A stretch of DNA of 64,000 nucleotides from Planctomycetota bacterium (GTDB taxonomy: Bacteria; Planctomycetota; Planctomycetia; Pirellulales; PNKZ01). Position 1 is the first letter of the stretch; the number at the start of each line of letters is the position of its first letter. The stretch is taken from contig JAFEBQ010000041.1 in NCBI GenBank assembly GCA_018242585.1, positions 1 to 64,000 of the forward strand, given 5' to 3'. Below the pieces are notes generated by a model. That model did no database searches. It saw only the letters and a program-made list of their open reading frames with translations, and was not told where the DNA came from. Positions 48,600 to 57,372 of the stretch are shown piece after piece. A program made the position numbers and the translations under genes.

Positions 48600-48815
48600 C
48601 TAGGATTCTGAGCCGTTGGCCTGAGCGCGTGCGAACTCAGCGGCCACCTGCTCAGCAGGAATCTCGACAACTTCGCCGTTGCGCGAGAAGACCATCGGTA
48701 CGCCAGCCTTTCGGTGACGCTCGATTGCGGCCAATAGGGCTTGGTCCATCGCCCGATCGATAGGCGTACCCTGCGCAAACAGGTCGTCGATGTTTACTTC
48801 GTGATCAGTCGCCAT
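48600..48815 (-). CDS. Small protein paired with zeta-like kinase (possible antitoxin)
   Basis: A 71-residue protein, MATDHEVNIDDLFAQGTPID at its start. A helical segment (RAMDQALLAAIERHRKAG) leads to a beta turn (VPMVFSRNGEVVEIPAEQV) and a short helical tail. The helix plus 'GxPMVxxxxGxVVxIPxEQ' pattern is one I associate with small proteins encoded next to zeta-type kinases. Its ATG (48813-48815) overlaps the end of the kinase gene by 11 bp, so the two are coupled. An antitoxin or accessory role is inferred from this pairing; the order (kinase first) is the reverse of most toxin-antitoxin operons. Confidence 0.7.
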   Translation of the reverse strand: MATDHEVNIDDLFAQGTPIDRAMDQALLAAIERHRKAGVPMVFSRNGEVVEIPAEQVAAEFARAQANGSES

Positions 48816-49401
48816 GAGCGTACGCTCCCTTGATTCGGTCCCAGAGCACAGGATCGTCAACCTGATCAGCCACCTCGTGCCGGCCAGACGCAATCACCCG
48901 CAATCTCCTGATCGACGAAGCATTATACATCCGCCAGCTCATCGCCAGTGGCTGGTAGATACCAAAAAAGTTCTTCAAACCTGCCTCATAGCGACGACGA
49001 ATCGTCTCTTCAGGCACATCATGCCCGCCCAACCGAACACGATTCGCCACTCGCTTCACCGCTGCACTAGCGCTCGACAGCCACAGATAAACAAGATGAA
49101 CATGGTAGCCCTGTTGAATCAACTGACTGAGTCTTGGTGCATGGGATCGCGCCGCCAGCGTCGTTTCAAATGCGAAATCGACCCGATGTCTGGCAAGTTC
49201 ATCCAGACGTTCCAGCATGATCCGACCAGCCTCAAACGCGGCGCTGGCCGGGTCGAAACCGGCCAGCCCCTCGGCGATCACATCAGCGTTGACGAATTGC
49301 GTCACCGACAGCACGTCGTGCAACAGCGCCGGCGCTAACGTCGATTTGCCGGCGCCGTTTGGGCCAGCCAACACGATCAACTTGGGCGTCTTGGCGGCCA
49401 T
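48805..49401 (-). CDS. Zeta-toxin-like P-loop kinase
   Basis: A 198-residue P-loop protein. Walker A is GPNGAGKST (13-21). FVNADVIAEGLAGFDPASAAFEAGRIMLERLDELA is the substrate and helix region seen in zeta toxins. DFAFETTLAARSHAPRL supplies the conserved FETT element. YLWLSSASAAVKRVANRVRLGGHDVPEETIRRRYEAGLKNFFGIYQPL carries the Arg-rich lid typical of the group. Zeta toxins phosphorylate UDP-GlcNAc, blocking peptidoglycan synthesis; whether this homologue does so is unknown. It begins 9 bp after the 1045-aa gene's stop, so it may be at the end of the ExbBD operon, and it overlaps a small partner gene. Confidence 0.88.
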   Translation of the reverse strand: MAAKTPKLIVLAGPNGAGKSTLAPALLHDVLSVTQFVNADVIAEGLAGFDPASAAFEAGRIMLERLDELARHRVDFAFETTLAARSHAPRLSQLIQQGYHVHLVYLWLSSASAAVKRVANRVRLGGHDVPEETIRRRYEAGLKNFFGIYQPLAMSWRMYNASSIRRLRVIASGRHEVADQVDDPVLWDRIKGAYAHGD

Positions 49402-49410
49402 CGCGAACCG

Positions 49411-52400
49411 TTAGCGCTCTTCCGGGCCTTCCAGGGTCTGGTAGATCGGCAGGTGCCGGTAATAGACTTCGAGCATCAGCAGGTCGAGCGCCGTGATGTA
49501 AATCCGCCCGCCGAATTCACCCCACCGGTCCGGCACCGGTCGGGCCGGGTCCCAACTGCCGGCCAGCGGACCTGACTGAACCTGTGAATCGACGAGCAAC
49601 GTGCGGAGCGCGCCGTTCCACTGCTCCCAATACTCGCCTTGCATCTGGAACATCACCTGCGTCGCGTAGTACCAATAATACGCGTCGCGCTGACCCGACG
49701 GACGAGCGGCCGTGGCCCGGCCATACTCGGGGAGTTGCCGCCCTAGCCAGCGGGCCCCTTCGACCATGCTCGGCTGATCGCGTCGCCAGCCCAGGTATTG
49801 CCGCATCAACAACGCCTCGGCCGTCATCACGCGGCTCGGCTCGCGCTGCGAAGCTTGCGTGCTGCGCGGGCGATAAGCGTAATGAGCCGGATCGCCGCCG
49901 GCGCCCTGGGCTTCGTCGAGCCAGTGGCTCACCTTGGCGTAAGTAGTCGACGGCACGGCCAAGCCGGCCAACTCGCCGCTCTTTAATGCCATCACTTGCC
50001 AGCCCGAGACCGAAGTGTCGCTCCCCTGGCGCGGCGCATAACGCCAGCCGCCGTCGGTCGGATGTTGCGCCGCGATGATGAAGTTCAGTGCGTTCTGCGC
50101 CGGGGCGCGCAGTTGCGCGTCGCGCGTCATGCCGTACGCCTCGCACAGCGCGATCGACGCGATGCCGTGACTGTACAACCAGACGTTCAGCGCCGAACGC
50201 TGGTCTAGCGGCACGAACAAGTCGCCGTCGGGCTTCTGCCGGCTGACCAGGTGTTGCAGGCCGCGACCAACCACGTCGCGATACTTGCCGTCGGTGTGCG
50301 TGTAGCCCGCTCCCAGGAAGGCGAGCAAGGCCAAGCCCGTGCCGGCCGTGTTCGATTGCATGATCATGCCGCTCGGGTCGCCCGTCTCGGCGCCGGCGTT
50401 GAAAGCGTGCAGGCTCCAACTACCGTCGGCTGATTGCACGCGAGCCAAAAAGGCCAGCCCCAACTCGACCGCGCGTTCGGTCCCTTCGGTGCCTCCGTAA
50501 GCGCGGGCCGTCTCGCCACGGCGCGAGCGGTCGCGCTGCTTCAAGCCGGCCACGGCCGTGTCGCGCACGTGGGCGTCGACGGCTTGCTGGCCGCCGGCTT
50601 TTTCCAGGATCAGCCGCGGCGTGGCGGCGTGGACCACTTCGCTTTCGGGTCGCGCGCGGCGCAGTGGCACACCGGCGTCGGCCGCGGTCGATCCGGTCAG
50701 ACCGCCGGCTTCGCCGGGAGTTTCGCTGCGTGACGGAGCGGGCTGGCCAATCGACGAGCGGGCCAGCGCGCCGCCGGCGTTCGACTCGATGGTGCTGCGA
50801 CGTCCCATCCCGCTCGCCGGTCCCAAGGCCAACGCGCCGCGCGTGCCGGACGGGCGTGAATCGTTGCCGCCGGGCGAGCCCGTCGAGGGTCGCGCGGCCA
50901 GTTGCGGAACGCTGAGTTGTCCCATGCCGTCGCCGGCCGGGGCCGCGCGCTGCGGCGCGCCCCCAGCGCCGGGCATGGTGCGAGCGCCGACGTAGTCGCT
51001 GGGGCTGGCCGGTTCGTTGTCGGCCCCGTTGCGGACGGCGGCCATCGCGCCGGCCCCATGCAACAGACCAGCCGCTCCGCCCGCGCCGGTCGCTTCGCTT
51101 TGAGCGCCCGAGGCGCCGAACGAGCTGCCGGCACCCATCGGTCCCAGTTGTGTCGCGCCAGGCGCGCCCAAGCTGGAACCCGCCGCCAACTGCCCGGCCG
51201 CGCTCGATGCGCGCTGGCCAAAGCTACCCGGCGCGGCTTGCAACTCGCCGGCGGCTTGCGAACCGGTCGTACCTGGCGAGCCGGCCGAGGCCTGGCGATG
51301 GCCGGCGGTGCCGTGCATGCCGACGACGGCCGGGGCGCGTTCTTGCGGCATGGTAGCGGCTTCGGCGCCGCTGATGCCGTGCGTGCGGATCATCGGTTCA
51401 CCCGCCGCGGTCGGTTGACCGGCGCCGGGGAGCGTGGCCGTGCGCGAAGGGGTGGCCGCCGGCGCGGCGACCGAGGCGGGAGCGTTATTCATCGCGGCGG
51501 TCATCGGCGCGGCGGTCGTCTGGGATGCGGCGCCCGTGAAGCGGCCGGTCGGTTCCAGCGGGCGAACCGTGGTATCGCGTGTGACCGTGGGATTGTTCAA
51601 CGTCGGCACGGCGGCATTCGGTTCGGCCATCACCGGCTGAGAACGCTCTTGTCGGTTGAGCATGGCCAGTTCCAGCCGCGTGTTCATTGGCTGCTGGGCC
51701 GAGCTGGCTTGCCGATCGGGAAGCTGCGGTGTCGGCGCGGCGCGCTGGGACAATTGCGTTTGCGCCTCGGGCATGTTCGCTTGTGGCGTGGCCGAGGCGG
51801 CCTGACGCTGAGTCTGCGCTGGGCTCAGGTCCTCGTGTGCCGTGGCCGCCGACCGCAGCACCGTGGCGCGCTCGGCCGGCGACAGTTGCGGCTCGGGGCG
51901 GACCATCTCGGCGCGTTTCTGCTCGGCTTGCTGCTCGGCGCGGCGCGGGGCCGACACCTCGGCGCGGGCCAGCTCGAGCGGCTGGGCCTGCTGCTCGGCT
52001 TTCTCTTGCTTTTTCATCTCGCGTGGCCGCGTGACCTGCTCCTCGGGCTGCGACTGGCGTTCCTCGGCCTTGGTCGCCACGCGCTGCGGGTTGGCCTCGA
52101 CCGGCTCCTGGAACATTTGCAACTCGTTGGGAGTCGCTTCGTGCGCGTCGGGGGTGTGATAGTCGGGCATCAGGACCGGTTCGTAAGGCCGGGCCACGAT
52201 TCCTTCGTCATTGACATGCACTGGCTGGATTTCCCAGCGATACAGCCCCAGCGACATCACCAGATGGATCACCAGGCTGAGCAGCAGCGCCAGTTGCATG
52301 CGACGCTGGATGTGCGCGCTGATCAAGCGGGCTGCGCCGATGACCAGCAGGGTCACCAGCGCGAGCGCCCCGAGTTGCGCCCAGGCGTTTTGCCAAATGA

Positions 52401-52548
52401 CCGTCGACTCGAAATCGCCGTGGGCGGCGATCACGCCCCCCGAAGCCGCCGCCAAGAGCACCAGCAACAGATTGACCGGCCAGCCGCGATCGTCGAAATC
52501 GTCGATCGCGGGCAAGTGCGGCGCGTGGCTGGTGGTGTGGGGCGACAT
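49411..52548 (-). CDS. Giant membrane protein with disordered linker and cyclase-fold domain
   Basis: A 1045-residue protein. Helices lie at about 27-43 (LLLVLLAAASGGVIAAH) and 55-72 (AQLGALALVTLLVIGAARL), with a further one at about 84-101 (MQLALLLSLVIHLVMSLGLY). A long Ala/Gln/Pro/Gly/Thr-rich linker (about 130-690) follows; its first part is Glu/Arg/Gln charged. The C-terminal 330 residues form an alpha/alpha toroid of the squalene-cyclase/prenyltransferase kind (GLAFLARVQSADGSWSLHAFN, GLALLAFLGAGYTHTDGKY, ALNFIIAAQHPTDGGWRYAP). It lies directly downstream of exbB-exbD, 40 bp after exbD, so it may be the energised partner of that motor. The catalytic Asp motif of true cyclases is not evident. 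Confidence 0.82.
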   Translation of the reverse strand: MSPHTTSHAPHLPAIDDFDDRGWPVNLLLVLLAAASGGVIAAHGDFESTVIWQNAWAQLGALALVTLLVIGAARLISAHIQRRMQLALLLSLVIHLVMSLGLYRWEIQPVHVNDEGIVARPYEPVLMPDYHTPDAHEATPNELQMFQEPVEANPQRVATKAEERQSQPEEQVTRPREMKKQEKAEQQAQPLELARAEVSAPRRAEQQAEQKRAEMVRPEPQLSPAERATVLRSAATAHEDLSPAQTQRQAASATPQANMPEAQTQLSQRAAPTPQLPDRQASSAQQPMNTRLELAMLNRQERSQPVMAEPNAAVPTLNNPTVTRDTTVRPLEPTGRFTGAASQTTAAPMTAAMNNAPASVAAPAATPSRTATLPGAGQPTAAGEPMIRTHGISGAEAATMPQERAPAVVGMHGTAGHRQASAGSPGTTGSQAAGELQAAPGSFGQRASSAAGQLAAGSSLGAPGATQLGPMGAGSSFGASGAQSEATGAGGAAGLLHGAGAMAAVRNGADNEPASPSDYVGARTMPGAGGAPQRAAPAGDGMGQLSVPQLAARPSTGSPGGNDSRPSGTRGALALGPASGMGRRSTIESNAGGALARSSIGQPAPSRSETPGEAGGLTGSTAADAGVPLRRARPESEVVHAATPRLILEKAGGQQAVDAHVRDTAVAGLKQRDRSRRGETARAYGGTEGTERAVELGLAFLARVQSADGSWSLHAFNAGAETGDPSGMIMQSNTAGTGLALLAFLGAGYTHTDGKYRDVVGRGLQHLVSRQKPDGDLFVPLDQRSALNVWLYSHGIASIALCEAYGMTRDAQLRAPAQNALNFIIAAQHPTDGGWRYAPRQGSDTSVSGWQVMALKSGELAGLAVPSTTYAKVSHWLDEAQGAGGDPAHYAYRPRSTQASQREPSRVMTAEALLMRQYLGWRRDQPSMVEGARWLGRQLPEYGRATAARPSGQRDAYYWYYATQVMFQMQGEYWEQWNGALRTLLVDSQVQSGPLAGSWDPARPVPDRWGEFGGRIYITALDLLMLEVYYRHLPIYQTLEGPEER

Positions 52549-52588
52549 GGCTGGTGGCGTGGAACGCCGGCTCGACGAACTTGATTGC

Positions 52589-53020
52589 TTAGGTGACCGG
52601 GGCGGTCGTGACGCGATAGTCCCGAATCTTGGCGCGGTTGCACAGGTTCATCACCGCGGCCACGAACTCGAAGGGCACGCGCTTGTCGGCGCGGATATAG
52701 ACGGTCTGGCGGCCGGGATTGTCGGCCGAGGATTTTTGCAGCACGCCCAGCAGTTGTTGCTCGTTGAGGTGCTGGCCGTTGACGATGAACTGGCCTTGCT
52801 GGTTGACGTTGATGAACAGTTCCTTGGGGCGGGCGGTGATCGGCATCGCCTCGCTGGCGTCGGGAAGGATGACGTTCATGTCCCGCTCGGCTTCCTCGAA
52901 CTGGGTCGCCACCAGAAAGAAGATCAGCAGCAAAAAGACGCAGTCGATCATCGGCGTCATATTGATGCCGCCCGAGACGAACCCTTTGTTGATTTGCACA
53001 GGCATGGAGGTGTCAGCCAT
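52589..53020 (-). CDS. exbD: ExbD/TolR-family biopolymer transport protein
   Basis: A 143-residue inner-membrane protein. A short cytoplasmic N-terminus is followed by one helix (INMTPMIDCVFLLLIFFLVATQF) containing the Asp26 that takes part in proton flow. A periplasmic domain has ELFINVNQQGQFIVNGQ and QTVYIRADKRVPFEFVAAVMNLC. It pairs with the ExbB-like protein encoded 46 bp upstream to form a proton-driven motor. The ATG at 53018-53020 fits the family start. Confidence 0.95.
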   Translation of the reverse strand: MADTSMPVQINKGFVSGGINMTPMIDCVFLLLIFFLVATQFEEAERDMNVILPDASEAMPITARPKELFINVNQQGQFIVNGQHLNEQQLLGVLQKSSADNPGRQTVYIRADKRVPFEFVAAVMNLCNRAKIRDYRVTTAPVT

Positions 53021-53066
53021 TCAGGGCACAAGCGATCCAGACAGCAAAAATGTCTCAGGCAGTGGA

Positions 53067-54125
53067 CTAGTTGGCGACCACGGGGGGTTCGGGCGTCACG
53101 GGGGGAGCCGGCGGCGGCGCGGCCGCGGCGCGCTGGACATCGCTGGTGCGAGCCACACGGAGCTTGCCTTCGTAGCGTTCCAATTGCGGCAAGAGCGAGC
53201 TCAGCAGCTCGTCGATGTCCTGGAATAAAACCTGGATGCGTCCTTCGAAGTAGTGGGCAAAGACCGAAGCCGGAATCGCCACCACCAGCCCGCCGAACGT
53301 GGTGATCAACGCGGTGTAGATGCCTTCGGCCAGGTATTGGTACTTGTTGGCGCCGGCGCCAAGGTTGGCCGCGTCGAAGAAGCAGCGGATCATCCCCTGG
53401 ACCGTGCCGAGCAACCCCAGCAAGGGCGCTACGCTGACCGCCAGGTTGATCGTCCGTACGTTGCGATACAGCTTGGTCGCTTCGCGGTTGCTGGCTTCGG
53501 CCACGGTGTGCTCGACTTCGGAGTGCGGACGGCCGACCTTGAGTAGCACCGACCGCAGCACGTTGGCGGCGGCCGACGGGAATTGCTGACAAAGCTGGTA
53601 CGCCGCCCGCGGGTCGAGTCCGCCGGGCTTCGACGCCAACTGGTTCAAGCTATCGACCAACTGCGCCGGAATGACCCGACCGCGGCGCAGGCCGAAGAGC
53701 CGTTCGATGGCCAAGATGATGACCAGCACCGAGAGGAGCGTGATGGGGATCATCAGCACGCCACCCTTCAACCAGTAAAGTTGGAACATCGAGTGAATCT
53801 TGTCGCCGACTTTCTCTTCACTGGCGGGTTGGGCCGCGGCTGGCTTGGCCTTTTTGCCGGCGGCGAGGGCGGCCTCGGCTTCACGCTCGGCCTGGCGCTG
53901 ACGCTCGACGTCGACTGGGGCCGTGCGCGCCGGCGGGGCAGGGGCCTGGGCTTGGACCGAGATGCTTAGGCCGGCGAGGGCGCACGCCAGAATCAGTGCG
54001 GCCAGGCTGCGACGCCGTTTACCCTCCCCCAGCCCCTCCCTGGAAGGGAGGGGTGCTTGTTGGGCGCGCTTCACGCCGGCGCCTTCGGGCGGTGCGCATC
54101 GTTGATCGTTCACGTCAGTTCGCAT
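53067..54125 (-). CDS. exbB: MotA/TolQ/ExbB proton-channel protein
   Basis: A 352-residue inner-membrane motor subunit. The TolQ/ExbB core has helices at GGVLMIPITLLSVLVIILAIERLFGL, then INLAVSVAPLLGLLGTVQGMIRCF and YTALITTFGGLVVAIPASVFAHYF, which carry the family's Thr/Gly signatures. The N-terminus is unusual. Starting from the ATG at 54123-54125, which overlaps the upstream TPR gene by 11 bp, residues about 17-38 (QQAPLPSREGLGEGKRRR) are a translation of the dispersed CCCTCCC repeat. A signal-like helix (SLAALILACALAGLSISVQA) and an Ala/Pro/Glu-rich linker follow. No other ATG exists between the repeat and that helix. Confidence 0.92.
   Translation of the reverse strand: MRTDVNDQRCAPPEGAGVKRAQQAPLPSREGLGEGKRRRSLAALILACALAGLSISVQAQAPAPPARTAPVDVERQRQAEREAEAALAAGKKAKPAAAQPASEEKVGDKIHSMFQLYWLKGGVLMIPITLLSVLVIILAIERLFGLRRGRVIPAQLVDSLNQLASKPGGLDPRAAYQLCQQFPSAAANVLRSVLLKVGRPHSEVEHTVAEASNREATKLYRNVRTINLAVSVAPLLGLLGTVQGMIRCFFDAANLGAGANKYQYLAEGIYTALITTFGGLVVAIPASVFAHYFEGRIQVLFQDIDELLSSLLPQLERYEGKLRVARTSDVQRAAAAPPPAPPVTPEPPVVAN
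54013..54065 (-). repeat. CCCTCCC/GGGAGGG repeat inside exbB
   Basis: TTTACCCTCCCCCAGCCCCT then CCCTGGAAGGGAGGGGTGCT: an inverted-orientation copy of the family, read in frame within the 5' end of exbB. It differs from the intergenic copies by only a few bases. Confidence 0.88.
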
Positions 54126-57100
54126 TGCCGAGTTCCTTGAGTCGATCCTGGGCAAGCTTCGCTTGCTCGCTGTTCGGGAATTTTTCGACCAGCTCGCGGT
54201 ACGAGCGGCGAGCCTGGTCGGGTTGTTTCAAGACTTCGAAGCAGCGGCCCGTTTCATAGTGGGCCGCCGCTTGCCAGCGCGGACTGTCGTAGGTCAGCAC
54301 GCGGAAGTAGTTCTTGATCGCTTGCTGGTGTTCGCGGCGCTCGAAGTGGATTTCCCCCATCATGAATCGCGCTCGGGCCGCGACTTCATCGCCCGTCAGC
54401 TCGGTGACTTCTTCAAAGTGCTTCAGTGCGTCGGCCGGCTTGTCGAGCGATTGTTCCGCCACGGCTTGCTCGTACAACAACTCGGGGGCATAAGGCCCGC
54501 GCGGGTCAAGCGCCAGGCCGGCCTGCACGCTTTGCAAACTTTGCTTCCACTGTTTCAGTTTCGCGGCCGCCTGGCCCGTGTGCAGCAGCGACAAGACCTT
54601 CATCCCGGGAGCTTTTGGCTCCTGAACCTTGGCATACAGGGCCAGAGCTTGCTCGAACTGATCTTGCTTGAAGAACGTCTCGGCTTCCATGAAAGCCGCG
54701 TCGGCCGAGAGGTCGCCTTTGGCAAATTGCTGCCGCTGCTTCTGGAACGTCGCGCGGGCCTTTTCGTAATCGCCTTGGCGGAAGTACGACCAGCCCAGGC
54801 GGTGCAAGATCGACTCGGTCAACGACGACTCACCGGCGCGCGTCAACGCCGAGGCGTACGCCTCGGCAGCGCGGCTGAACTCTTCGGCCTGGTAATAGTG
54901 GTCGGCCAGTTGGCACTGGGCCTCGGCGAACAGGGGGCTGTCGGGAAACTTCTTGACCAGTTGCTGGAAGGCGTCGAGCGAATCCTTTTCGCGGCCGGCG
55001 TTCTTGGCGGCCCAGGCCAACTCGTTCCAGGCCCGATCGGCGCCGACGTATTTGGCATCGTCCTTCAACAACTTCTGAAACGTGTCGATCGCCGCGGGCA
55101 GTTGCTCGGCCGCCACCAGGCACAACCCCAGGTTGTAGCGCGCGTCGGAACGCTCGGCCGTCGTCGGCTTGGTGTCGAGGAACGCCTGGAAGTCGCCAAT
55201 CGCGCGCTGGTAATCCTTCAGGCTGTAACGAGCCACGCCGCGCGCGTAGAGCGTGCGGGCCGCGACGTCGGCGACCGGCTTGGCGGCCAGCAGTTGGTCA
55301 TAGGCCGCGACCGCGTCCTTGCCATTGCCTTGCGAGAAGAGCGCCCAGCCCAAGCCGTAGCGGGCCTGCGGCGCGAGGGGGCTGTTGCCGAATCGCTTGA
55401 GCAACTCTTGATAGTGTTGCACTGCGGCTGGAAGATCGTCGGCGGCATAGGCGTATTCGGCCGCGCGGAAGTACAGCTTGTCGGCCACCGGCCCGGACGA
55501 GAACTCTTGCATGCCGCGCTGCAACATCGCCCGGGCGCGCTTCAGGTCGTTCTTGTCGCGCGCAATCTGGGCCAGCAGCAACAGCGTCTCGTCGGCTTGC
55601 TTGCTCTGCGGCGCGGCGGCCAGCGACGCCTCGAGGGCCTCGGCCGCTTCCTTTGGCTTCTTCTGCTGCAGGTAGCTATTGCCCAACAGATAATAAGCCT
55701 GGGCGTTGGCGTCGGCCGTGGCCAGCTTGCCGGCCAGCGGCTTCAGCGCCGAAACCGCGTCGGAATACCGCTCGCCCAGCGACAGCGCCAGCCCGCGACG
55801 CAGCGACCAGGTCGGCACCTCGGCGTGCTGGGGATAGTCGCGCAGCAGCTTGCCGTAGTCGGCTTCGGCCCCTTTGAAGTCGCGGGCCAGGAGCTTGCTC
55901 TCGGCCGAGACATAGCGCACGGCGGGCACGAGTTCGTGCTGGGGATACTGCTTCAGAAACTTTTGGCTGCGCGAGGCCGCGGCCGAGTAATCGTTTTGCT
56001 TCAAGGCGCAGAACGAGGCCATGTACAGAGCCTCGGCCGCCAGATCGTGCTGCGCGTGCTGCTCGGCCACGGCGTTGTAAGCCGTCGAAGCGTCCGCGAG
56101 CCGAGCGGGCATTTCGTACAGCGCGTCGGCGCGATCGAGCATCAGCCGCGCGGCCCAAGTGCTCTTGCCCGCTTTCTTCAGCGCTGCATCGACGCGCTCG
56201 GCGGCCTTGGCCGGTTGACCTTCGCGGAGGTACGCGCGGGTGATCCAGTGAACTGCTTCCCACGATGCGTCGCTGTCACCGGCGGCCAGCGGCTCGAACT
56301 CAACACGCGCGTCGGCGAACTTGTCGTCCAGGAACAAGCACTTGCCCGCAGTCATGCGCGCCGTCGGCACCGACGACGATTGGGGGTAGCGATTGATCAG
56401 GTCGCGATAGAGCGAGGCAGCTTTGGCGTATTGCTTCTGTTCAAAGCGGGCGTCAGCCTGACGGCGCAGGGCGTAATCGGCCGGGCCAAACCCCTGGGCC
56501 GCGGCTGCTGTCGCGAACAGCGGCTCGGCTTCGGCCGGCTTGTCCAATTGCATCAGCGCGTCGCCGCGGCGCATGGTCACTTCGGTAACCAAGCGATGTT
56601 GCGGGTAAAGCTGCAAGAAGGCGGCAAAGTTATCCGCGGCTGGCTGAAAGCGTTCCAACTCGGCCTGCGTCACACCCAGCGCGTACCAGGCGTCGGGCGC
56701 TAACGTGTCGTCCGGAAATTGCTTGACGAACTCGATGTAGAACTTCACCGCGTCGGTCTTGCGGCCGGCGGCATAGGCGGCTTCGCCTTGATAGAAGATC
56801 GCCTGGGGCAAGTATCGCCCCTGGGGATACTTCTGGGCCAGCGTGGCCAGGGTTTGTTGCGCGCGGTCGAGCATGTCGGCCTTGCCTGACTGGCCGACGT
56901 TGTATTGGGACAACCCTAAGTAGTAATACGTGGCCGGCAGCAGATCGAGCTTCTCGCCGTCGGTGGTCTCGGCCACCAGCGCGCCGGCCGGAAACTTCGC
57001 CGCGTCGTCGAGCAGCTTCTGAAACGTGGCCGCCGCGTCGGCGTACTGCTTGAGCTTGAGCTGGCACACGCCCAGGTAATGTCGAGCCCTGGGCGCCAAC

Positions 57101-57372
57101 GGATCGGCACCCTGCTTGGCGACGAACTTGGTCCATTCTTCGGCGGCCAGGTCGAACTGGTCCCGGTTCTGCAACTGAACCGCCGTGGCGTACAGCCGAG
57201 TGGCGGCTTCGCTGCTCCCGCTGGCCGCCCCGGCCGCGGCATCGCCAGCGGGCTTGCCCGGGTTGCCCGCCGGGGCCTGGGCGTGCGCGTTCAAGGTCAG
57301 CAGGCTGGTGAACAACCCGGCCAGCAGCAGACGAACCGACAGACGGCATGAGGAATCGAGATACTTCGGCAT
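54115..57372 (-). CDS. Large secreted TPR protein of the ExbBD operon
   Basis: A 1085-residue protein with a signal peptide (LLLAGLFTSLLTLNAHAQA) and about 20 or more tetratricopeptide-type repeats through its whole length. Examples are AEEWTKFVAKQGADPLAPRARHYLGVCQLKLKQYADAAATFQKLLD, AIFYQGEAAYAAGRKTDAVKFYIEFVKQFP and, at the end, YETGRCFEVLKQPDQARRSYRELVEKFPNSEQAKLAQDRL. The repeat style, with ...KFP(N/D)SPxAxxA..., matches YbgF/CpoB and BamD-like periplasmic TPRs. CpoB works with the Tol motor in other bacteria, so a periplasmic partner of the adjacent ExbBD is a reasonable guess. It heads the leftward operon; exbB starts within its last codons. The ATG at 57370-57372 opens the signal peptide. 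Confidence 0.88.
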   Translation of the reverse strand: MPKYLDSSCRLSVRLLLAGLFTSLLTLNAHAQAPAGNPGKPAGDAAAGAASGSSEAATRLYATAVQLQNRDQFDLAAEEWTKFVAKQGADPLAPRARHYLGVCQLKLKQYADAAATFQKLLDDAAKFPAGALVAETTDGEKLDLLPATYYYLGLSQYNVGQSGKADMLDRAQQTLATLAQKYPQGRYLPQAIFYQGEAAYAAGRKTDAVKFYIEFVKQFPDDTLAPDAWYALGVTQAELERFQPAADNFAAFLQLYPQHRLVTEVTMRRGDALMQLDKPAEAEPLFATAAAAQGFGPADYALRRQADARFEQKQYAKAASLYRDLINRYPQSSSVPTARMTAGKCLFLDDKFADARVEFEPLAAGDSDASWEAVHWITRAYLREGQPAKAAERVDAALKKAGKSTWAARLMLDRADALYEMPARLADASTAYNAVAEQHAQHDLAAEALYMASFCALKQNDYSAAASRSQKFLKQYPQHELVPAVRYVSAESKLLARDFKGAEADYGKLLRDYPQHAEVPTWSLRRGLALSLGERYSDAVSALKPLAGKLATADANAQAYYLLGNSYLQQKKPKEAAEALEASLAAAPQSKQADETLLLLAQIARDKNDLKRARAMLQRGMQEFSSGPVADKLYFRAAEYAYAADDLPAAVQHYQELLKRFGNSPLAPQARYGLGWALFSQGNGKDAVAAYDQLLAAKPVADVAARTLYARGVARYSLKDYQRAIGDFQAFLDTKPTTAERSDARYNLGLCLVAAEQLPAAIDTFQKLLKDDAKYVGADRAWNELAWAAKNAGREKDSLDAFQQLVKKFPDSPLFAEAQCQLADHYYQAEEFSRAAEAYASALTRAGESSLTESILHRLGWSYFRQGDYEKARATFQKQRQQFAKGDLSADAAFMEAETFFKQDQFEQALALYAKVQEPKAPGMKVLSLLHTGQAAAKLKQWKQSLQSVQAGLALDPRGPYAPELLYEQAVAEQSLDKPADALKHFEEVTELTGDEVAARARFMMGEIHFERREHQQAIKNYFRVLTYDSPRWQAAAHYETGRCFEVLKQPDQARRSYRELVEKFPNSEQAKLAQDRLKELGNAN

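Follow-up and report, generated by a model that had tools for sequence, protein, structure and literature searches.

What kind of machine, if any, is encoded by a planctomycete operon in which an ExbB/ExbD motor lies between a large TPR protein and a giant protein with a terpene-cyclase-like end? We analyzed this locus in a window of 64,000 nucleotides, positions 1 to 64,000 of contig JAFEBQ010000041.1 of a Planctomycetota genome (GCA_018242585.1; 5.57 Mb, 56 contigs). The original prediction, made from the letters of the DNA, had joined five genes, for the TPR protein, ExbB, ExbD, the giant and a zeta-toxin-like kinase, into one trans-envelope machine.

Layout of the operon and its motor

All five genes are real: each is an open frame on the minus strand, at the position first reported for it (Table 1). 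The gaps are 46 bp between the genes for ExbB and ExbD, 40 bp between those for ExbD and the giant, and 9 bp between the giant and the kinase. The longest frame for ExbB spans 53067-54155, and translation most likely begins at the ATG at 54125, giving an 11-bp overlap with the stop of the TPR gene.

Table 1. Features of the operon in the window and of a second toroid operon elsewhere in the same genome
Feature	Position	Strand	Details
TPR protein	54115..57372	-	1085 aa; TPR_16 8.1e-63 (Pfam)
ExbB/TolQ-like motor subunit	53067..54125	-	352 aa from ATG at 54125; MotA_ExbB 4.2e-24 (Pfam)
ExbD/TolR-like motor subunit	52589..53020	-	143 aa; ExbD 1.4e-28 (Pfam)
Giant transducer (putative): three helices, linker, toroid	49411..52548	-	1045 aa; SQHop_cyclase_C 3.5e-6 on last 376 aa (Pfam)
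Third helix of the giant with S91-x3-H95 (LLSLVIHLVMSLGLY), core of SHLS-type motor-binding motif	52234..52299	-	hydropathy and motif
VLMPDY, motor-box-like strand	52159..52176	-	about 30 aa past H95; post hoc pattern
Ala/Gly/Pro-rich linker	50542..52233	-	about 560 aa; composition
C-terminal alpha/alpha toroid (modelled)	49414..50541	-	aa 670-1045; AlphaFold2 and Foldseek
Zeta-toxin-like kinase, passenger outside the module	48805..49401	-	Zeta_toxin 6.4e-13 (Pfam)
71-aa kinase partner, antitoxin-like by position, passenger	48600..48815	-	frame adjoining kinase
Second operon (L098), toroid	183948-184970		contig C12, own genome
Second operon (L098), ExbB	186487-186849		contig C12, own genome

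The TPR protein is probably periplasmic, judging from a signal-peptide-like start recognised by eye. It matched the tol_pal_ybgF profile at 3.3e-104 across 11 stretches, a score that is due to its TPR repeats, and a lipobox-like pattern was present in 4 of 75 TPR frames with uncurated start codons. Among solved structures, TolQ was nearest to the ExbB subunit (1.5e-6) and ExbD to the ExbD subunit (4.3e-13). The proton-path residues are retained almost throughout the relatives: the equivalents of TolQ Thr145 and Thr178 in 75 and 76 of 77 ExbBs, respectively, and that of ExbD Asp25 in 87 of 89 sequences. By these residues, the two subunits belong to the ExbB/TolQ and ExbD/TolR families. Furthermore, the docking side of ExbB TM1 carries Ser in 36 of 37 anchorable sequences; a TM1 Trp showed no conservation among them.

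Conservation of the module and the kinase pair

We compared the locus with relatives taken from chosen toroid matches of a 57-genome search (own genome included), all 37 copies above 300 bits in 8 genomes, 80 named contigs (the 80 best among 546 confirmed stretches) and further loci from the phylum. Removal of 12 N-terminally cut frames and 4 duplicates left 163 distinct toroid ORFs whose N-terminus could be read, a non-random set since loci were picked by toroid similarity or long frames. Toroid ORFs of more than 820 aa were called giants (n=107; 78 with at least 5.5 kb upstream), and no two of their toroids were 97% or more identical. Conservation of gene order had been set beforehand as a test, scored as TPR-ExbB-ExbD on the same strand within 3.5 kb, and this order was found upstream of 61 of the 78 giants. 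That giants would mostly occur without exbBD, which had been named in advance as a finding against the machine, is contradicted by adjacent ExbB and ExbD genes in 63 of the 78. Apart from the full sets, two loci had ExbB-ExbD; the 15 giants without an adjacent ExbB and ExbD pair comprised seven with ExbD only, one with the TPR gene only and seven with none. The complete TPR-ExbB-ExbD-giant arrangement is held by Neorhodopirellula pilleata and Stieleria tagensis, and an ExbD-giant arrangement by Blastopirellula marina DSM 3645. A search of 294 genomes of the phylum found the toroid itself in 268 (E <= 0.001, some matches weak; six candidates scored per genome).

In six genomes with a giant that is not beside ExbB, we searched for the motor elsewhere. 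Four of them had a close ExbB (49-55%) by a TPR gene, as a separate TPR-ExbB-ExbD cluster (G011, G014), as TPR-ExbB (G020) or as TPR-ExbB at a contig end (G001). A fifth, G040, has TPR-giant, and the genome search found no close ExbB in it; in G010, a TPR-ExbB-ExbD cluster, whose ExbB is at 41%, lies apart from the propeller-type giant. Across 53 genomes, the giant's N-terminus (E below 1e-20) and its type of ExbB (matches chosen by hand, about 50% identity or more) were both present in 29 and both absent in 21; one had the N-terminus only (G040) and two the ExbB only (G030 and G052, whose giants have a shorter N-terminus). This co-occurrence gives a Fisher p of 1.6e-11, which is uncorrected for kinship and overstates the evidence because the genomes are related. 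One entry (G037) consists of two contig pieces, and 19 of 20 rows of A4 are drawn from these genomes. The 21 negatives include two genomes with propeller-type giants and less similar ExbBs (G010, G016) as well as incomplete genomes, namely G041, whose giant is cut at a contig end, and G005, which carries the replacement domain described below. Presence and absence shift jointly within three families (f2, f3, f12), and apparently likewise in f20, whose negative genome is G041, 73% complete and with the cut giant.

Thus, the TPR protein, ExbB, ExbD and the giant form a conserved module. An overlooked fifth gene was considered and rejected, as no neighbour cluster exceeded 15 of 89 loci; the largest lay on the opposite strand (frames picked by length, neighbours unannotated).

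The kinase did not hold its place in the machine and lies outside this module. A scan of 180 sources picked up only the window's own copy, and the six other genomes of the family gave no match. On these results, the kinase with its 71-aa partner looks like a passenger. Relatives of the kinase occur in 16 of 53 genomes (own included), with four matches containing an internal stop, and in each of five further loci scanned the kinase adjoined a relative of the partner (two clear matches, 1.1e-9 and 2.6e-8; three weak, 3.3e-4 to 6.7e-4). The pair is patchy in occurrence and looks like a toxin-antitoxin module. The proposal that the whole gene set, kinase pair included, is one regulated machine draws on the short gap between giant and kinase; it is extremely improbable, given that the kinase was not found in the six family genomes and the other 179 sources and that elsewhere it accompanies its own partner.

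Anchor helix, linker and end domain of the giant

The giant does have the three hydrophobic helices ascribed to it; hydropathy alone places them at about aa 24-42, 59-77 and 84-102. TonB and TolA are described as binding the motor via a Ser-3x-His-6x-Leu-3x-Ser (SHLS) motif (PMC12905483, PMC12204202), and we scored the core of this motif among the relatives. A small residue-x3-His pattern ([SAGC]-x3-H) occurred in any helix of 95 of 107 giants (Ser in 73, Ala, Gly or Cys in 22) and of 43 of 45 toroid proteins of 481-820 aa. It was concentrated in the anchor helix, where 90 of 105 giants carried it, compared to 14 of the 197 helices that precede it in these giants; 5 of the 15 misses carry the motif in a helix that the script had cut otherwise. 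Scoring by the last helix gave 83 of 99 giants versus 21 of 214, and the background rate was 85 of 1491 helices of other ORFs, where hydropathy cuts of 1.3 (toroid proteins) and 1.6 (background) were used to call helices. Giants inside ExbB-ExbD operons had the motif in 72 of 76 cases, or 73 with L140, which was scored without His and by eye has Gly-x3-His. The His is replaced in giants of three intact operons, L121 (Asn), L051 (Tyr) and L071, and also in the giants L130, L156 (Asn) and L044 (Tyr).

The remainder of SHLS is less well kept: the Leu, at H+7, was present in only 32 of 95 giants, and the last Ser (H+11) was mostly not kept among them. S-x3-H was present in all six canonical planctomycete TonBs examined, four loci from 35 matches and the two of the own genome (SLVFH, SLAFH). 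A phmmer comparison of the giant's third helix with solved structures returned chance-level matches only. Lys and Arg were richer before the anchor helix than after it in 53 of 95 giants and poorer in 21, a bias consistent with a helix oriented N-in, C-out and with a toroid in the periplasm. Short toroid proteins were of little use as a control, the filter leaving a helix in only 1 of 11, one of which (L194) is probably a fragment of a giant; in a looser scan, 1 of 10 had A-x3-H, at a signal peptide (L104). The conserved residues on both sides suggest that the third helix would be the one that binds the motor.

The linker that follows varied from 76 to 1798 aa (median 619) among 95 giants and would span the periplasm. 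About 31 residues past the His, 29 of the 95 giants have a VTLPDY-like strand, compared to 0.9 expected from shuffles, and the pattern occurred once further down a linker; it was composed after the sequences were seen and is absent in the other 66. This strand is a candidate equivalent of the motor box of PMC12204202. Taken together, the S-x3-H helix, the long linker and, in some members, the motor-box-like strand mark the giant itself as a putative TonB/TolA-like transducer. TonB would thus be replaced, rather than missing, in this operon. The statement that no TonB, TolB or Pal is present is accurate for the operon but not for the genome, which has two TonB_C genes elsewhere, along with two Plug and three OmpA domains. 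Neither Pal nor a separate TolB is among the window's operon genes, so the locus does not qualify as Tol-Pal. TonB_C was found in 22 of 40 relatives, and the toroid in 57 of 57 genomes.

At its C-terminus the giant is predicted to form the terpene-cyclase-like toroid that had been proposed for it, with an AlphaFold2 model of mean pLDDT 91.5 and pTM 0.92 (40 sequences). Foldseek matched this model to MstE (7.6e-7), squalene-hopene cyclase (8.0e-7) and GH76 (4.2e-6), and TM-scores against the two best class II terpene cyclases were 0.57-0.60 by query length. Of the 40 invariant columns in the toroid alignment, 12 are Trp or Tyr, and the toroid carries QxxDGSW-like repeats. DxDD is the catalytic motif of class II terpene cyclases. 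We did not find it in the translation of the window's toroid, the one toroid read for it, and Pfam reported neither a TonB_C nor a vWA match in the giant; by the model and Pfam together, its end domain is not of the TonB/TolA C-terminal fold.

Replacement of the toroid, fused propellers and paralogues

In one genus of the window's family (g4), the gene after TPR-ExbB-ExbD encodes a giant that keeps the three helices, an SLLFH motif and the linker, but has about 229 differing last residues in place of the toroid. The replacement end domain had no Pfam match and no useful PDB match. Of 7 genomes of the family, 4 contained it, and each of these belongs to genus g4. In three (G003, G004, G006) anchor and replacement domain lie on the same contig in a frame of equal length; in the fourth (G005) the anchor was not found and one copy of the domain sits in a 279-aa frame. 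One replacement giant is encoded at L235, 5516-8392 (minus strand). A second copy in G005 (L247, 59% identical) is joined to a different membrane protein.

These observations bear on the reading of the giant as a membrane-anchored terpene-cyclase-type enzyme to which exbBD is a functionally unrelated neighbour. The modelled alpha/alpha toroid fold, shared with class II terpene cyclases such as MstE and squalene-hopene cyclase, and the QxxDGSW-like repeats are what such an enzyme would have. Unlike those cyclases, however, the window's toroid is without DxDD and is tethered to a motor-binding type of helix; the S-x3-H helix, the co-occurrence with ExbB and a genus that keeps the anchor but not the toroid make this reading very unlikely. 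A plain cyclase was rejected on the missing DxDD in the window and the end-domain replacement in g4.

Twelve giants carry a long insert between helices 1 and 2, as judged by motif position, and all six inserts scanned matched PD40. The PorE, CHU_0125 and TolB profiles matched the two inserts tested, all below the cut-off, with PorE and CHU_0125 outscoring TolB. For a propeller model (pLDDT 78.2; 5 sequences), the 17 top-ranking PDB matches were all TolB (E from 3.5e-13, TM about 0.5). In a toroid tree built by a quick method, the propeller proteins branched basally in the clade of giants and close to the second operon type; a further entry (L095) was labelled propeller-type without a PD40 check. 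It is possible that the propeller is ancestral and was later lost.

The own genome contains a second TPR-ExbB-ExbD-toroid operon (L098, contig C12) with a 663-aa transducer. Other toroid paralogues are solitary and have a one-helix S-x3-H anchor, and ten short toroid proteins without such an anchor form a separate clade. Toroid copies above 300 bits numbered 2 to 6 per genome in 8 genomes, and neither ExbB nor ExbD lay upstream of 29 of the 45 mid-sized paralogues (481-820 aa). One short toroid protein (L103, contig C41, 73581-74534), in which no helix motif was found, is encoded on the same contig as the operon, about 16 kb upstream of its TPR end; its toroid match counts one TGA inside. Three solitary toroid proteins (L074, L075, L076) have two Cys-x2-Cys pairs before the helix that by eye look zinc-ribbon-like. 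Three more ExbB clusters of the own genome, on contigs C16, C25 and C9 (L113/L241, L114/L242, L115), have two ExbD genes each and no toroid within the stretch examined. Near an ExbB-ExbD-ExbD set and a toroid gene, L077 (16506-17561, plus strand) encodes a 351-aa protein with an AWLISIVVH helix and, by eye, a vWA-like DRSGSMGG; it looks like the vWA transducer described in PMC12204202.

A proposed transducer akin to Ton and Tol-Pal

Compared with the Ton system, the module has the same ExbB/ExbD motor with its key residues and the same order of S-x3-H helix, linker and globular end domain. It differs in its alpha/alpha toroid, its three helices where Ton has one, its very long linker and its TPR gene, and a true TonB coexists in the same genome. 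With Tol-Pal it shares an ExbB nearest to TolQ, a TPR partner and, in some relatives, a TolB-like propeller, whereas its ExbD is nearest to ExbD among solved structures, a toroid stands in place of the TolA end domain, and the propeller, if present, is fused into the transducer. The layout is shared with the vWA force transducers of the PVC group (Williams-Jones et al. 2025, PMC12204202), described as TPR, tolQ, tolR and an S-x3-H transducer, again with an end domain unrelated to those of TonB and TolA; theirs is a vWA end with a tolR pair, in contrast to the toroid and single exbD here. Neither 'toroid' nor 'cyclase' appears in the main text of that paper. Among the papers listed from the open-licence PMC literature there was no report of a toroid-tipped transducer, the literature search found no paper on cyclase-like repeats with ExbD or in planctomycetes, and a term search in the text of the P. 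limnophila essential-gene paper (PMC10632474) gave no match. The toroid-tipped transducer would combine a known motor logic with an end domain new to the literature searched.

We consider it likely that the module is a PMF-driven trans-envelope machine built like Ton and Tol-Pal, with the giant replacing TonB or TolA. Gene order and co-occurrence support the trans-envelope part of the original prediction well, while its kinase drops out and the giant takes over as the TonB/TolA-like component. ExbB and ExbD would form the inner-membrane motor, on which the giant's third helix would dock through Ser/small-x3-His. The linker would cross the periplasm, and the toroid would grip a partner in the outer membrane or wall that the motor pulls, turns or recharges. 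By analogy with CpoB, the TPR protein may be a periplasmic partner. Complex formation, force transduction and the location of the toroid are what we infer from these features.

As to the module's job, we tentatively favor Tol-like maintenance or constriction of the outer membrane or wall, as the first-ranked of several candidates, ahead of import and of secretion or motility, and short of probable. ExbBD powers import in the Ton system, and the toroid might play the part of TonB here by opening a receptor in the outer membrane for a glycan or another substrate; its model also resembles alpha/alpha toroids that handle sugars, GH76 among them. However, no neighbour family stood beside more than 15 of 89 giants, so that no receptor is a constant neighbour, and the own genome has TonB_C and Plug genes elsewhere. 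We regard import as unlikely. A motor for surface motility, adhesion or secretion, comparable to vWA transducers or gliding systems, would accord with the layout of TPR, tolQ, tolR and S-x3-H transducer shared with the former (PMC12204202) and with the propeller of two relatives, which is nearer the PorE and CHU_0125 than the TolB profiles, all below the cut-off. Among the unannotated neighbours at the 89 loci, however, nothing of this type was recognised as constant, and this role seems less likely still. Among the same unannotated neighbours no outer-membrane gene was recognised as constant either.

Planctomycetes are reported to lack FtsZ (PMC5147048), TonB was found in only four of them (PMC3422733), and their Tol-Pal set is described as largely reduced (PMC8871954). 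An outer membrane is nevertheless reported for them. It is conceivable, if somewhat doubtful, that a Tol-like machinery of their own exists in Planctomycetota, made up of a family of transducers tipped with toroids, at most two of them in dedicated TPR-ExbB-ExbD operons and others perhaps sharing motors, with an ancestral fused TolB-like propeller and an end domain replaceable as a unit; it would carry out Tol-Pal-type envelope work in cells that divide without FtsZ. If the module works as proposed, the toroid would join the vWA class of 2025 (PMC12204202) as a further new class of end domain in proton-driven transducers, and its natural replacement would show motor anchor and end domain to be units with separate evolution. 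For the question of how planctomycetes act on their outer membrane, the module provides named, testable genes.
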